The notes beneath the pieces were generated by a model. The model was given only the letters and a program-made list of their open reading frames with translations. It did no database searches and was not told the origin of the DNA. Below, piece by piece: positions 37,335 to 45,688 of a stretch of DNA of 64,000 nucleotides (within the stretch, counting starts at the first letter, position 1; every line of letters starts with the position of its first letter). The stretch covers positions 1 through 64,000 of the forward strand of contig JAJUGU010000011.1 in the NCBI GenBank assembly GCA_029265815.1, in the 5' to 3' direction. Made by a program: the position numbers and the translations under genes. The stretch comes from Anaerolineaceae bacterium (GTDB lineage: Bacteria > Chloroflexota > Anaerolineae > Anaerolineales > Anaerolineaceae).

Positions 37335-38156
37335 TTACATACGACGTGTCCAGGTTGAGGAGTTGTATTTTGTTTGCATAAGTTCATCAGCCATTCTCAA
37401 CTCTGGTTCTGTAGGAGAGCACTGTTCAAAATGAATATTAAATGTGCTGGAAAAGCCCTCAACGAATGCTTCAGCAGCCGTGTTCCAGGAAATAATTCTT
37501 CCCAACACCATTTCAAGCGTTACAGCGTGATCAAGGATCTGGTTAGCATCCAATTGTCTGGCTTGTTCACTTTCATATTTCAAGACCCGTGTAATACGGG
37601 TCAGATCGCCTCTGAGCGGAAGGGAGCCATGCTGCAGCAGGCCGCCATATTTGCGAGCCTGTGCGGATCCGATCAGTTTCTTCCCCCTAGCAGTAATCTC
37701 ATAATTCGAAGGAGTTTCGAAACACACAGGTTTGGGCGTTGATTTTCCATTTCCGTTTGGGTATTCTTTATCACCAATGGCGTCTACCCCTAACAAAGCC
37801 AGAGATTTCAATAAAGCGATTGAGATCTTTCGATAACTTTCCAGCAGGCTGCCATTCAGAATGGGGTCATCAAGTGGTGCGGTAACCGAATAGGTCAGTT
37901 CGTCGATATGCAGGATGGCTCGACCACCAGTAGGCCTGCGGACAAGGTGCCAGTCTTTTTCTTCTAGGCTACGAAGATCTACATCTGAATATGGTTGGGC
38001 GAAACCGAGCGAGAGCGCAGCTGGATCCCAGTTGAAAAGGCGCAGGGTTGGTATAACGGTTTTTTCGGCCGCCGATTTCAACAAAGCTTCGTCAAGAGCC
38101 ATGTTCCATGCACCATTGTGTGGTTCGGAGATGATTAATCGCCATGTCGAAGTCAT
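37335..38156 (-). CDS. Octanoyltransferase LipM-like (lipoate-protein ligase A family)
   Basis: Transfers octanoate (or lipoate) to carrier proteins such as GcvH. The 273-residue protein shows RRPTGGRAILH (73-83), then CFETPSNYEI with Cys145, the position of the acyl-cysteine in LipM, and ARGKKLIGSAQ with Lys160. The cysteine separates it from classical LplA ligases, which lack it. It lies upstream of the DUF218 gene on the same strand with an 81-base gap. The lipoyl role would serve the glycine cleavage system, part of which (GcvT) is encoded 3 kb away. No Shine-Dalgarno sequence precedes the ATG. Confidence 0.87.
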   Translation of the reverse strand: MTSTWRLIISEPHNGAWNMALDEALLKSAAEKTVIPTLRLFNWDPAALSLGFAQPYSDVDLRSLEEKDWHLVRRPTGGRAILHIDELTYSVTAPLDDPILNGSLLESYRKISIALLKSLALLGVDAIGDKEYPNGNGKSTPKPVCFETPSNYEITARGKKLIGSAQARKYGGLLQHGSLPLRGDLTRITRVLKYESEQARQLDANQILDHAVTLEMVLGRIISWNTAAEAFVEGFSSTFNIHFEQCSPTEPELRMADELMQTKYNSSTWTRRM

Positions 38157-41466: not shown

Positions 41467-44400
41467 CTACAACTTCGGAAAACGACTTAATACAACTGCG
41501 GGAGTCGGCAAGGTTACCCGGTCGCCAGCAGTGAGTTCTGAAGGAGCTTTACCTGCTTGTTTGGGGGAACCCTGATATACAAAGATTGGAGTTCCTTCTA
41601 TGGCAGATTTCAAATCAAGAGAAGCCTGGCCTGTTAACAGGCCGTCGGTATCTATGGCACAGCTGGTGACGACACCAATTACCTTTCCTTTACTGTCTAG
41701 CACGGGGTCACCATTATGGGCCATGCGCACACCTTTCTCAGGGAATCGGAATCTAACGACCACTGTTTTCCGTTGAGATTCCTTTTTAATGAAAGCGTCT
41801 CTACCAATAAACCAGGGTTTGTAGGTTTTGACATAAGAACCAAAACCAGCCTCTGCAACGCCCAGGTTCATCTCACCGCCCATTTCGTGGCCGTAGAGGG
41901 GAAGTCCGGCTTCAGTGCGCAGCGAATCCCTCGCGCCCAGTCCACACGGTTTCATTCCTAAGGGCTCACCAACTTTAGTGATAGCTTCCCAGAGCGCGGG
42001 CGCCTTCTGTGGATGAACGAACAGTTCGAAGGCCATTTTCTCGCCGGTATAACCTGTTCTAGATACGATCAGATCAAATCCGCCAATCACAGCTTCACAC
42101 AGTTCCGTGCGCTTGAGGGCCTTAACCCTCTTCTGAGTGGCAGCATCGCAACCCAGCGCGAGCAGGATATCACGAGATTTGGGACCTTGGAGCGCAATAT
42201 CCACGCGCATATCATCACCCTCTTTGGGATCACGCAAGTTGCGAAGTTTAACACCGCTGCCAAAGGCTTTTACCCAGGGTTGAGTGGTATCCACCATGAC
42301 CTTGCCAGTTCGAACGGCATTCAACCAGGCCCAGTCCTTGTCGTCATTGGAGGCATTGACCACAACGAGATATTTATCTGACCCGCGGTGGTAAACCAGC
42401 GTATCATCAATCACATTGGCATCTGGATCGAGGAAATGCGTGTAACAGGATTCGCCAACTGCAAGCGCACCAATATCATTGCCGCAAACGCAATCGAGGA
42501 AGACAGAGGCGAAAGGTCCTTCAGCCTGGAAAACGCCCATGTGAGAAACATCGAATAAACCTGCAACTTTACGGCATGCCAGATGTTCTTCAACAACCGA
42601 GGTATACCAGACTGGCATTTCCCATCCAGCAAAGGGGATGATCTTGGCACCAAGTTTCTTATGTGTTTCATAGAGTGATGTGCGTTTCAACTCGGGTGAT
42701 TCTGGTTCGTTCCAGACAAACATAGGTAATGATTGCCCTTTACCTCGCTTCTTGCCGATGAAATATGGCTTTGTCTCGCATATTGCATCGCCGGTTGAAA
42801 TCGGGTCTGTCGCTGTGGATTCTTCGATGATGATGGGGCCTGGAATGCGCCGGGGCAGGTCATCGTCAAATGCTATATATCCATCAGATAAAGCTCGGAG
42901 GAATGTGGCCGCCAAACCAAAATCAGTTGATTTTATTGTAAATCGATAAGAATCTTTTTTATTGCAGACCAAAGTTCCCTCTACGACCCTGATTGGCGTT
43001 TTGAGCGAAGTGGGCTGGGATTGACCGGGCTTCAGTGCTTCTGCGTCTGAACTGAAGCAGTAGTTGACAAAATAACGAATATGCTCGCCTTTCAGATCAA
43101 GAGCAGCAGTCTCTGATTTTGTCGAGGGCACATCATCGATATAGTAGAAATGTGGGTATCCACTTTTTTGATAGGTGAGATCTGCGCCTGCTTTTTCACA
43201 GATTGCACGTACTTTAAGTTTGGCATTTTCCAATACTTTGAAATCTACTTTTGCGCGCTGTGCAGGGCCTTTTCGTGTTTCGACGGTATACGGGGTAATT
43301 GCGTGCAAGATGTCGGCAATAATATCCGCCACCTTAACCATATCGCTTTCTTTTAACCCTCGCTGGGTCATCCATGGAGTGCCATAACGAATGCCTGACG
43401 CGTTCAATGCGGTCTTATCACCAGGGATGGTATTGCGGTTAAGCACGATTCCGGCGATATCCAGGATTCGGGCGGCAATGTCACCCGATAAAGTGGTTCC
43501 ATCGGGGCCAACAATGGTCTTGCAATCGATGTTTCCAAGGTGAGAATCTGATCCAGAGAAGGAAATACGAAGTCCGCGTTCTTGAAGCCTCTGGGTAAGA
43601 GCAGCGCAATTCTTGATGATCTGTTCCTGAAGCTTTTGAAATTCCTTCGTCTTCGCAATTTTAAAGGTGGTCGCCAGAGCTGCGAATACATGCACGTGAG
43701 GGCCGCCCTGCTCGCCAGGGAAGACAGCTTTATCAATTTTCTTCGCCAGGCTACCGTCAGTGGTGAGAATGCACGCACCACGCGGACCGCAGAGAGTCTT
43801 GTGGGTGGTGAAGGTAATCACATGCGCATATCCTACTGGTGAGGGAATTGCTTTTCCGGCAATCAAGCCAGCGATATGCGAGACATCTGCCAGAAGGTAA
43901 GCACCAACGGCATCCGCGATGGCTCTGAAGCGTGCCCAATCCGGAATCCACGGGTAGGACGAATAACCACAGATGATCACTTTTGGCTGGACTTCTTTTG
44001 CCAGTGCTTCCAATTTGTCATAGTCAATCTTTTCAGTTTGAGGATCGACATTGTAGTGTGAGACTTTGTATAATTTACCGGAACGGTTAACAGAGGATCC
44101 ATGCGTGAGGTGACCACCATGCAAGAGATTCATCCCCAAGATGACGTCGCCTGGTTCGATCATCGCATGGTAAACAGCATTGTTGGCAGGCGCACCTGAC
44201 AGCGCTTGAACATTGACGTAAATCTGATCAGCGCTAACTTTTTCAGTAGCAAACACTTCCGCGCAGCGGCGGCGGGCGAGGGATTCCACCACGTCTGCGT
44301 ATTCAACACCTTTATAATAGCGTGGATCAGCATAGCGGCGGTAATAAGAAAGCCGGTTGGAATAATCTAAGATTTCTGGTTCTGTCATCCAGCGGGTATC

Positions 44401-44592
44401 TTCATCCGGATAACCTTCGGCATAGAGATTCTGGAAGACAGATGAAAGCGATTCTCGCACCGCAGCTGGCGCTGTGCTTTCAGACGGAATGAGTATTAAT
44501 TTCCTGAATTGCCGTTCTGTTTCGAATTGGATCAGTTGAGCCACTTCTGGATCCAGATCAGAAAGAGACCCACGAACAAGATGATCGGTCAT
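41467..44592 (-). CDS. Fused serine hydroxymethyltransferase - aminomethyltransferase (GlyA-GcvT)
   Basis: A 1041-residue fusion. Residues 1 to about 467 are serine hydroxymethyltransferase, with the PLP lysine Lys265 in TTHKTLCGPRG. Residues about 634-1041 are the T protein of glycine cleavage (IPFAGWEMPVWY, GLFDVSHMG, LGARDSLRTEAGLPLYGHEM). Both use tetrahydrofolate and glycine, so the fusion could channel methylene-THF. Between them lies a roughly 165-residue segment that I cannot assign. The ATG at 44592 has GAGGAG upstream; the frame is open back to 44670, but that extension overlaps the leader terminator. The gene is preceded by a promoter and an attenuator-like leader. No gcvH or gcvP is near. 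Confidence 0.93.
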   Translation of the reverse strand: MTDHLVRGSLSDLDPEVAQLIQFETERQFRKLILIPSESTAPAAVRESLSSVFQNLYAEGYPDEDTRWMTEPEILDYSNRLSYYRRYADPRYYKGVEYADVVESLARRRCAEVFATEKVSADQIYVNVQALSGAPANNAVYHAMIEPGDVILGMNLLHGGHLTHGSSVNRSGKLYKVSHYNVDPQTEKIDYDKLEALAKEVQPKVIICGYSSYPWIPDWARFRAIADAVGAYLLADVSHIAGLIAGKAIPSPVGYAHVITFTTHKTLCGPRGACILTTDGSLAKKIDKAVFPGEQGGPHVHVFAALATTFKIAKTKEFQKLQEQIIKNCAALTQRLQERGLRISFSGSDSHLGNIDCKTIVGPDGTTLSGDIAARILDIAGIVLNRNTIPGDKTALNASGIRYGTPWMTQRGLKESDMVKVADIIADILHAITPYTVETRKGPAQRAKVDFKVLENAKLKVRAICEKAGADLTYQKSGYPHFYYIDDVPSTKSETAALDLKGEHIRYFVNYCFSSDAEALKPGQSQPTSLKTPIRVVEGTLVCNKKDSYRFTIKSTDFGLAATFLRALSDGYIAFDDDLPRRIPGPIIIEESTATDPISTGDAICETKPYFIGKKRGKGQSLPMFVWNEPESPELKRTSLYETHKKLGAKIIPFAGWEMPVWYTSVVEEHLACRKVAGLFDVSHMGVFQAEGPFASVFLDCVCGNDIGALAVGESCYTHFLDPDANVIDDTLVYHRGSDKYLVVVNASNDDKDWAWLNAVRTGKVMVDTTQPWVKAFGSGVKLRNLRDPKEGDDMRVDIALQGPKSRDILLALGCDAATQKRVKALKRTELCEAVIGGFDLIVSRTGYTGEKMAFELFVHPQKAPALWEAITKVGEPLGMKPCGLGARDSLRTEAGLPLYGHEMGGEMNLGVAEAGFGSYVKTYKPWFIGRDAFIKKESQRKTVVVRFRFPEKGVRMAHNGDPVLDSKGKVIGVVTSCAIDTDGLLTGQASLDLKSAIEGTPIFVYQGSPKQAGKAPSELTAGDRVTLPTPAVVLSRFPKL

Positions 44593-44775
44593 TGAAATTT
44601 CTCCTCGATTGAATTTTGAACCGGTATTAACAAATAAAAAACCACCTTCAGATGAAATGCTAAGCAACATCTGTTGGTGGTATTTTTCTGAAAGGTATCA
44701 GTCATTCGTTTCTCAACAACCGGCCCAAATTAAGTTTGTTTGCTAAATCTGGTTCAGTTTCGATACAGCGCAGAC
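44593..44775 (-). promoter_or_regulatory. Riboswitch/attenuator-like leader of glyA-gcvT
   Basis: The leader is about 183 nt from the predicted transcription start. In order on the minus strand: GTATC (44766-44762), which can pair with GATAC (44699-44695); within that loop a 7-bp stem CCAGATT/AATTTGG; then TACCTTTCAGA (44697-44687), which can pair over 10 bp with the 3' arm TCTGAAGGTG of the terminator; then the terminator itself. The closing stem and the antiterminator share bases 44697-44695, so they exclude each other. This is the logic of a transcriptional off-switch. I do not recognise the consensus of the glycine, THF, SAM or T-box classes. Confidence 0.6.
44635..44681 (-). terminator. 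Leader terminator upstream of glyA-gcvT
   Basis: On the minus strand ACCACC pairs with GGTGGT and CAGATG with CATCTG, separated by a symmetric AA/AA internal loop; the apical loop is 13 bases and the stem is followed by TTTTTTATTTG. It lies between the promoter at 44782-44810 and the start codon at 44592, so it must be regulated or read through. The 48 bases left after it hold only the ribosome-binding region and no clear promoter. Confidence 0.8.
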
Positions 44776-44781
44776 ATAATT

Positions 44782-44810
44782 ATTTTAGCCTGTTGTGCGA
44801 AAAGGGTCAA
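44782..44810 (-). promoter_or_regulatory. Sigma-70 promoter of glyA-gcvT
   Basis: On the minus strand TTGACC (44810-44805), exactly 17 bases, then TAAAAT (44787-44782). This is the best consensus promoter in the window. It lies 45 bases after the lipase stop codon and predicts a start near 44775. Confidence 0.8.
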
Positions 44811-44854
44811 GGACAATTGCGAAATCGGCACTTTCGAAAATACGTGAATCCAGT

Positions 44855-45688
44855 TTATACATGAGAATTTAGCCAGTCGATCATGACCTTGAGGACGTCA
44901 GCTTTCTCAGGTTCATTATGTAATTCGTGGTAATAGCCCTGCCATTCTTTATAGGTTACAAATTTTGCTGGAGCATGATCAGCGAATTTTTTGGTTAATT
45001 CCGGGCTGACCAGTTTATCTGAAGTACCTTGCATCAGAAGAATCGGCATTTGAATATTAGCGGCATGCTCGATGATGTAATTGCCACTGTTAAGCAAATC
45101 TAAACCCAGGCGGGCCGTGGTATATGGGTGAACCAACGGGTCAGCAGTGTATGCTTCACCGACTTTTGTGTCTCTGGCAAGGTCATTTGGGTCCAATCCA
45201 TTTTTCATCTGGAATGTAGGGAACAAGGAGTACATAATTTTTCCCAGGAAAATCTTTGCAGGTGGAATGGGGACGGTCACTCCGAGCGCAGGAGAAGTGA
45301 CAATAGCACCCGAAGGCAAAGATTTCTGGGTGACAGAATAATAGAGCGTCAGGTTACCACCCAGACTATGCCCGTAGAGGAAAACCGGTTTGCCTGGTTG
45401 TGTTTCTCGAACGATTTTGAGCCCAGTGTTGATATCTTCCATAAACGCATCGTACGAGGGAGAATGTCCGCGGATTCCCTCTGATTGCCCGTGACCGCGT
45501 AAATCAAAACCTGTGATTGAAAAACCTGCATCTGTCAGGGTTTGGGCAACATGCTGATAACGCCCGGTATGTTCGCCAATTCCATGGATTAACAGGATGG
45601 CTGCTTTGGGTTCAACTTCCGGTTTCCATTCTACTGCGTGAAGCTTCAATCCATCTTTTGTTTTAAATTCAAAGAATCTCTGCTGCAT
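44855..45688 (-). CDS. Alpha/beta hydrolase, monoacylglycerol lipase / lysophospholipase family
   Basis: A 277-residue serine hydrolase without a signal peptide. The oxyanion block is LLIHGIGEHTGRY, the GFDLRGHGQSEG motif follows, and the nucleophile elbow is YGHSLGGN (Ser near residue 108). The acid is probably in LLMQGTSDKLVSP and the base in YYHELHNEPEK. This order is typical of the monoglyceride lipase (Hydrolase_4) family, which releases fatty acid from monoacylglycerol or lysophospholipid. GAGGAA precedes the ATG at 45688. It faces the subtilase gene across a 127-base AT-rich region in which I cannot pick one convincing promoter. Confidence 0.9.
   Translation of the reverse strand: MQQRFFEFKTKDGLKLHAVEWKPEVEPKAAILLIHGIGEHTGRYQHVAQTLTDAGFSITGFDLRGHGQSEGIRGHSPSYDAFMEDINTGLKIVRETQPGKPVFLYGHSLGGNLTLYYSVTQKSLPSGAIVTSPALGVTVPIPPAKIFLGKIMYSLFPTFQMKNGLDPNDLARDTKVGEAYTADPLVHPYTTARLGLDLLNSGNYIIEHAANIQMPILLMQGTSDKLVSPELTKKFADHAPAKFVTYKEWQGYYHELHNEPEKADVLKVMIDWLNSHV

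Follow-up and report, generated by a model that had tools for sequence, protein, structure and literature searches.

The fused serine hydroxymethyltransferase-GcvT (SHMT-GcvT) gene of an Anaerolineaceae bacterium is preceded by a promoter and a leader terminator, both of which are real; attenuation through this terminator is conserved and well supported. The switch acting on this terminator may be a short translated leader ORF, which would make the element an attenuator of the pyrBI kind; this reading is given close to an even chance. The analysis covered the window (the whole stretch of 64,000 nucleotides under study) together with related leaders from its genus and family. The genus comprises 16 genomes, of which 15 carry the gene, and all 15 leaders were readable; one leader alignment held 14 sequences and another (A2) held 15.

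The fused gene, its promoter and the leader terminator

The controlled gene consists of one 1041-aa ORF (41467..44592, minus strand) with the Pfam domains SHMT and GCV_T. The initial annotation had named it as glyA-gcvT; the one-carbon identity holds, whereas the division into two separate genes does not. The fused protein was matched in 59 of the 61 genomes of the first search, and a search with the 264 N-terminal residues found matches in 139 of the 147 family genomes. In most of the Anaerolineales genomes searched, the match to the fused protein covered all or nearly all of its length. No paper listed in the literature search had an SHMT-GcvT fusion as its title subject. Near the fused gene lies a lipoate-protein ligase-like ORF (37335-38156, assigned by eye), and lipoate serves the glycine cleavage system.

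The near-consensus promoter claimed at the outset, TTGACC-17-TAAAAT, was found at 44810-44782 on the minus strand, and the claimed leader of about 183 nt, from the promoter to the gene's ATG at 44592, was likewise borne out. By itself the site lies within chance (the promoter scan gave 16 promoter-like sites in 7 kb vs 10.8 in shuffles), and its support comes from conservation: TTGACC, the 17-nt spacer and a TAnAAT-like -10 box are present in all 15 genus leaders (14 aligned, plus L036).

Near the expected transcription start stands TGTC (44773..44776, minus strand), where other Anaerolineales have a palindrome's left half; its GTC is kept in 12 of the 15 genus leaders (alignment A2, by eye). 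The palindrome, TGTC(A/T)GA(C/T)A, was seen in 12 of 76 regions of 200 nt lying upstream of the fused gene. It lies 5-11 nt past the -10 box in the nine with a recognised promoter (L172, L177, L181, L189, L192, L195, L198, L200 and L208) and is also found upstream of the gene in L164, L182 and L206; the plus strand of these loci, 634 kb in all, holds 18 matches. The palindrome is probably a DNA operator, and the GTC of the genus leaders may perhaps be its left half.

Folding, duplex tests, a consensus fold and pair counts all identify an intrinsic terminator in the leader (44632..44681, minus strand), consisting of the stem ACCACC..CAGATG / CATCTG..GGTGGT (44681-44641) followed by a U-tract. 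Its minimum free energy (MFE) is -21.6 kcal/mol (44690-44630; z -4.78), which none of 200 shuffles equalled; a simple terminator scan did not list it. The terminator had been described as complete and placed before the start codon, and this description is confirmed both by the z-score and by its retention in the genus, where a check for its absence in close relatives found it in all 15 readable leaders. Across these leaders the terminator duplex has a mean z of -3.23, and at most 0.013 of shuffles did as well in 13 of the 15, the weaker cases being L008 (0.17) and L016 (0.18); the start of the terminator arm in L005 was picked by hand from two candidates. When arms were swapped between species, 8% of permutations were as good as the matched arms because the arms hardly vary, with CAC, ATG and CATC invariant in all 15 leaders. 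In the genus alignment 89.4% of terminator cells are paired, and the RNAalifold consensus of the 15 leaders retains the terminator only.

The terminator might instead belong to the upstream alpha/beta-hydrolase gene, which lies on the same strand and ends at 44855, with the real glyA-gcvT promoter downstream of the terminator. Nevertheless, the distance from the U-tract to the gene's ATG is 25-40 nt in 14 genus leaders, too short for a promoter and a ribosome site, and a conserved promoter precedes the terminator in 14 of 14 leaders. Since the spacing excludes a later promoter, this assignment was rejected and is considered highly improbable.

Conservation of the proposed riboswitch fold

A riboswitch with a mutually exclusive antiterminator had been suggested for this leader; in such a riboswitch, the stretch before the conserved core would, together with the core, bind a small molecule and control the terminator. 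The window provides several features in its favour. The proposed antiterminator strand TACCTTTCAGA (44687..44697, minus strand) does pair with the 3' arm of the terminator over 10 bp with one bulge, and the closing stem GTATC/GATAC and inner stem CCAGATT/AATTTGG both appear in the MFE structure of the window leader, which has a z of -4.19. The supposed aptamer part alone (44775-44680) gave z -1.96, with 10 of 200 shuffles as good. Furthermore, the 15-nt core is conserved in the genus, and strong antiterminator pairing is seen in the window, L009, L012 and L013.

These stems are, however, not kept in the relatives. Duplex energies were calculated for each leader (n=15) and compared with shuffles and with species-swapped partners, a procedure that requires no alignment. 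The antiterminator duplex had a mean z of -0.46, with 26% of species permutations as good, and stood within the best 0.05 of shuffles in just four of the 15 leaders (L001, L009, L012 and L013, the window among them). The closing stem gave a mean z of 0.01 with 76% of permutations as good, and the hairpin before the core a mean z of -0.58 with 8%. Pair counts were no different from chance expectation, with 59.8% of cells paired in the aptamer stems vs 61.0% in shuffles and 40.3% vs 40.6% in the antiterminator; the 5' half of the alignment is poor, which weakens the consensus fold and the aptamer pair counts, not the duplex tests. Covariation was sought in the 15 genus leaders and was found for neither the closing stem, the inner stem nor the antiterminator, leaving the terminator as the sole conserved or covarying stem. 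In L007, merely 36 nt separate the -10 box from the core, so that most of the supposed aptamer is missing, as is a hairpin comparable to those of the other leaders. Sliding the antiterminator by +3 columns raised the paired cells to 55.6%, with a higher covariation score and a strong fit in one subgroup; this variant was rejected, the best duplex being -5.0 kcal/mol or weaker in six of the 15 leaders.

The initial remark that no recognised riboswitch class is present was upheld: at gathering cut-offs, Rfam 15 gave no match in the window or in 20 related loci, and known riboswitch classes were rejected on this ground. In E-value mode, 44560-44860 returned four matches, all under the gathering scores, the best (E 0.017) being to a microRNA family. 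The lack of an Rfam match does not indicate a new aptamer class, given the lack of conservation in the supposed aptamer. In the covariance-model search of the family, moreover, the element was found before this one gene and in one genus only. Judged on these alignments and folds, the riboswitch reading is not supported, and a riboswitch of a new class is regarded as unlikely. The case carries a lesson, namely that a riboswitch suggested by one window was unsupported by fifteen relatives.

The conserved core and leader ORFs in the genus and family

Upstream of the terminator, the genus alignment contains a conserved 15-base core, TTGAGAAACGAATGA (44702..44716, minus strand). It ends in ATGA, and this ATGA together with one G of its GAG is invariant in all 15 leaders. 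The ATG (44705-44703) may be a leader start codon, and the GAG (44714-44712) a weak Shine-Dalgarno site. With the canonical 16S tail as generally known, the mean anti-Shine-Dalgarno energy at the core is -3.4 kcal/mol, compared with -8.0 at the gene and -1.6 in leader windows; a pattern search of the window's genome for this canonical tail found no match. The conserved CTGAG in place of GGAG would be odd for a plain ribosome site. Between core and terminator the sequence diverges freely while its length is nearly kept, at 20 nt in 11 of the 15 leaders, 19 in two and 23 in two.

The core appears specific to this leader. A covariance model of core and terminator (R1), searched with stricter filters that may lose weak matches, found 15 of the 147 family genomes, each belonging to the window's genus, and the best match in each was the leader of the fused gene. 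Eleven extra matches comprised ten of the same leaders on the opposite strand and one ordinary terminator (L225). The window leader occurs once in its own genome. The pattern CTGAGNNNCGAATGA gave ten matches in the 16 genus genomes, eight of them in the SHMT-GcvT leader; as further copies, L065 was rejected for lying within a coding frame and L072 for lying between two genes on the other strand.

A short conserved single-stranded motif beside a terminator, without conserved stems, would also suit protein-dependent antitermination, in which an RNA-binding protein bound at the core blocks the terminator. Such sites often serve several operons, whereas the R1 search points to one copy of the core per genus genome, and this alternative is accordingly considered rather improbable. 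A further alternative is a partly leaky terminator that merely sets the expression level, or that yields a short leader RNA acting elsewhere. The terminator is indeed strong and no sensor was identified in the leader; nevertheless, the conserved core and near-fixed spacing in 15 leaders would be left unexplained, and there is little reason to expect that this is the correct account.

The predicted leader ORF of the window begins at the core ATG (44589..44705, minus strand; 38 codons, MTDTFQKNTTNRCC...), and its stop codon TGA overlaps the ATG of the gene. In all 15 genus leaders the frame from the core ATG is open as far as the terminator, the ORFs being 12 to 39 codons long, while stops interrupt the other two frames in three and seven leaders. 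Column shuffling leaves 9.8 frames open on average and gives a probability of 0.027 for all 15, a modest statistic; the species of the genus are related, so the frame and duplex statistics are softer than they look. The ORF stops within the 5' arm of the terminator in L011 and L012, and the 19-nt spacing of L004 and L016 leads a different frame into the arm. Column variability at codon positions 1, 2 and 3 is 1.21, 1.04 and 1.38, a small effect. The leader peptides show no conservation across the genus and no enrichment in glycine or serine (two Gly and eight Ser among 165 residues at codons 2-12), and a Gly- or Ser-rich control peptide was rejected on these counts.

Outside the genus, leaders of the same design recur. 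Of the 139 family genomes with the gene, 77 yielded leaders with a recognised promoter for the count of first ATGs (15 from the genus, 62 from outside), and 46 of the 62 had the length (>=70 nt) needed for the terminator count. Terminators were accepted at -12 kcal/mol, a cut-off of -7 having been dropped after shuffles gave false positives at a rate of 25 of 61. At this threshold, 24 of the 46 outside leaders contain a terminator vs 19 of 184 shuffled sequences, a rate by which a few of the 24 are false. Among the 39 terminator leaders (15 from the genus and 24 from outside), an ATG-initiated ORF reaches the terminator in 33, against 21.1 expected. The first ATG lies at most 17 nt from the -10 box in 19 of the 24 outside terminator leaders (8.3 expected; seven of 12 genera), two of these ATGs (L109, L051) opening frames of one or two codons, and in 16 of the 38 outside leaders without a terminator (10.6 expected). 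Related species of the family are not independent of one another in these counts. Leader-ORF attenuation thus seems, from this comparison of leaders, to be common at the SHMT-GcvT gene in the family, with leader sequences that differ between genera.

In the genus g11, three leader ORFs (L079, L081 and L086) have HLL[LM]C in common, with leucine codons TTG TTG TTG in L081 and CTA CTA CTC in L086; these synonymous codons are good evidence of coding. A fourth leader of this genus, L021, was lost to the promoter pattern and stands outside the terminator, ORF and first-ATG counts; by eye, it too encodes HLLLC. Other genera offer observations of their own. The terminator leaders of g60 (L108, L109, L112, L119, L120) start with a very short ORF of hydrophobic character (MVLLSILCIDI, MVLLMLCIGT, MVLLPILLVFD, and MILRMLCIVT from the second ATG in L109), with several third-position codon differences. 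In g4 (L047, L048, L049, L052), short leaders without a terminator closely resemble one another in CATGGA(C/G)GCGGTGCACCGC...GGGCACGGCTGCGCTGCAAC right past the -10 box, a candidate for another element. Cysteine codons occur in many leader ORFs of the family, and some are expected from random frames too; cysteine sensing, as by the leaderless ORFs that reportedly exist in mycobacteria, is therefore not claimed here.

Proposed mechanism and comparison with known attenuators

The leader-ORF model is favoured because an invariant ATG, an open frame, a near-fixed spacing and a terminator occur together with unconserved codons. Promoter, conserved terminator, invariant ATG, open frame and near-fixed spacing can be read from the DNA; that the ORF is translated, and that translation relieves termination, is what we infer. 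RNA polymerase would initiate some 183 nt ahead of the gene and, unless prevented, stop at the terminator just before SHMT-GcvT. The conserved core would supply the start codon of a short ORF running into the terminator, and a ribosome close behind the polymerase would cover the terminator's 5' arm, so that the hairpin would not form and SHMT-GcvT would be transcribed. Because the end of the U-tract lies about 70 nt past the leader ATG, the polymerase would normally terminate, and it would be the closeness of the ribosome that switches the outcome. This closeness might be determined by growth rate, nucleotide supply or initiation itself. Since conservation extends to the start codon with its surroundings and, very nearly, to the spacing before the terminator, and not to the codons, the attenuator could conceivably sense translation initiation. 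It could in this way monitor how much formylated initiator tRNA, and hence how much of the one-carbon units that SHMT-GcvT provides, is available. This proposal is a long shot; if true, a feedback loop would be closed without an aptamer or a regulator protein.

The leader is of interest as a conserved example, from Chloroflexota, of a one-carbon gene subject to transcription attenuation. The leaders of several other genera differ in sequence and have a terminator and an ORF reaching it, and would provide a natural series for the study of attenuator origins, perhaps with replacement of an operator. The kind of attenuator is known, while its SHMT-GcvT instance seems new; a literature search for an attenuator in a glyA/SHMT leader or a glyA riboswitch in Anaerolineae gave nothing relevant among the matches listed, and PMC2965389, which deals with premature terminators, contained none of the terms looked up in it.

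In other bacteria, riboswitches for glycine, ZTP and THF stand before genes of glycine, serine and one-carbon metabolism and so share this gene context, but no Rfam match at gathering cut-offs was obtained here. Attenuators of the trp type likewise place a leader ORF ahead of a terminator; the ORFs of the window's genus differ in overlapping the terminator and in lacking both Gly/Ser enrichment and a conserved antiterminator. In the E. coli ampC attenuator, a ribosome site lies in the leader beside the terminator and a start codon is followed at once by a stop, with little codon dependence. The present leaders resemble it in a (putative) ribosome site beside the terminator and in the little weight of their codons, and differ in an ORF of 12-39 codons instead of a start-stop. 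The E. coli pyrE attenuator resembles that of pyrBI. The likeness to pyrBI itself has its limits, as the UTP-sensed pause belongs to pyrBI and the window leader is shorter and serves another gene in another phylum. In pyrBI, the leader gene of 135 bp contains the terminator. Ribosomes can repress terminators, and those situated within the first 100 bp of a coding region are suppressed poorly if ribosome and polymerase are not coupled by pausing (PMC4824070). The shared design is that of a terminator inside or overlapping a leader ORF, which a closely following ribosome would abolish (for pyrBI, PMC4824070).
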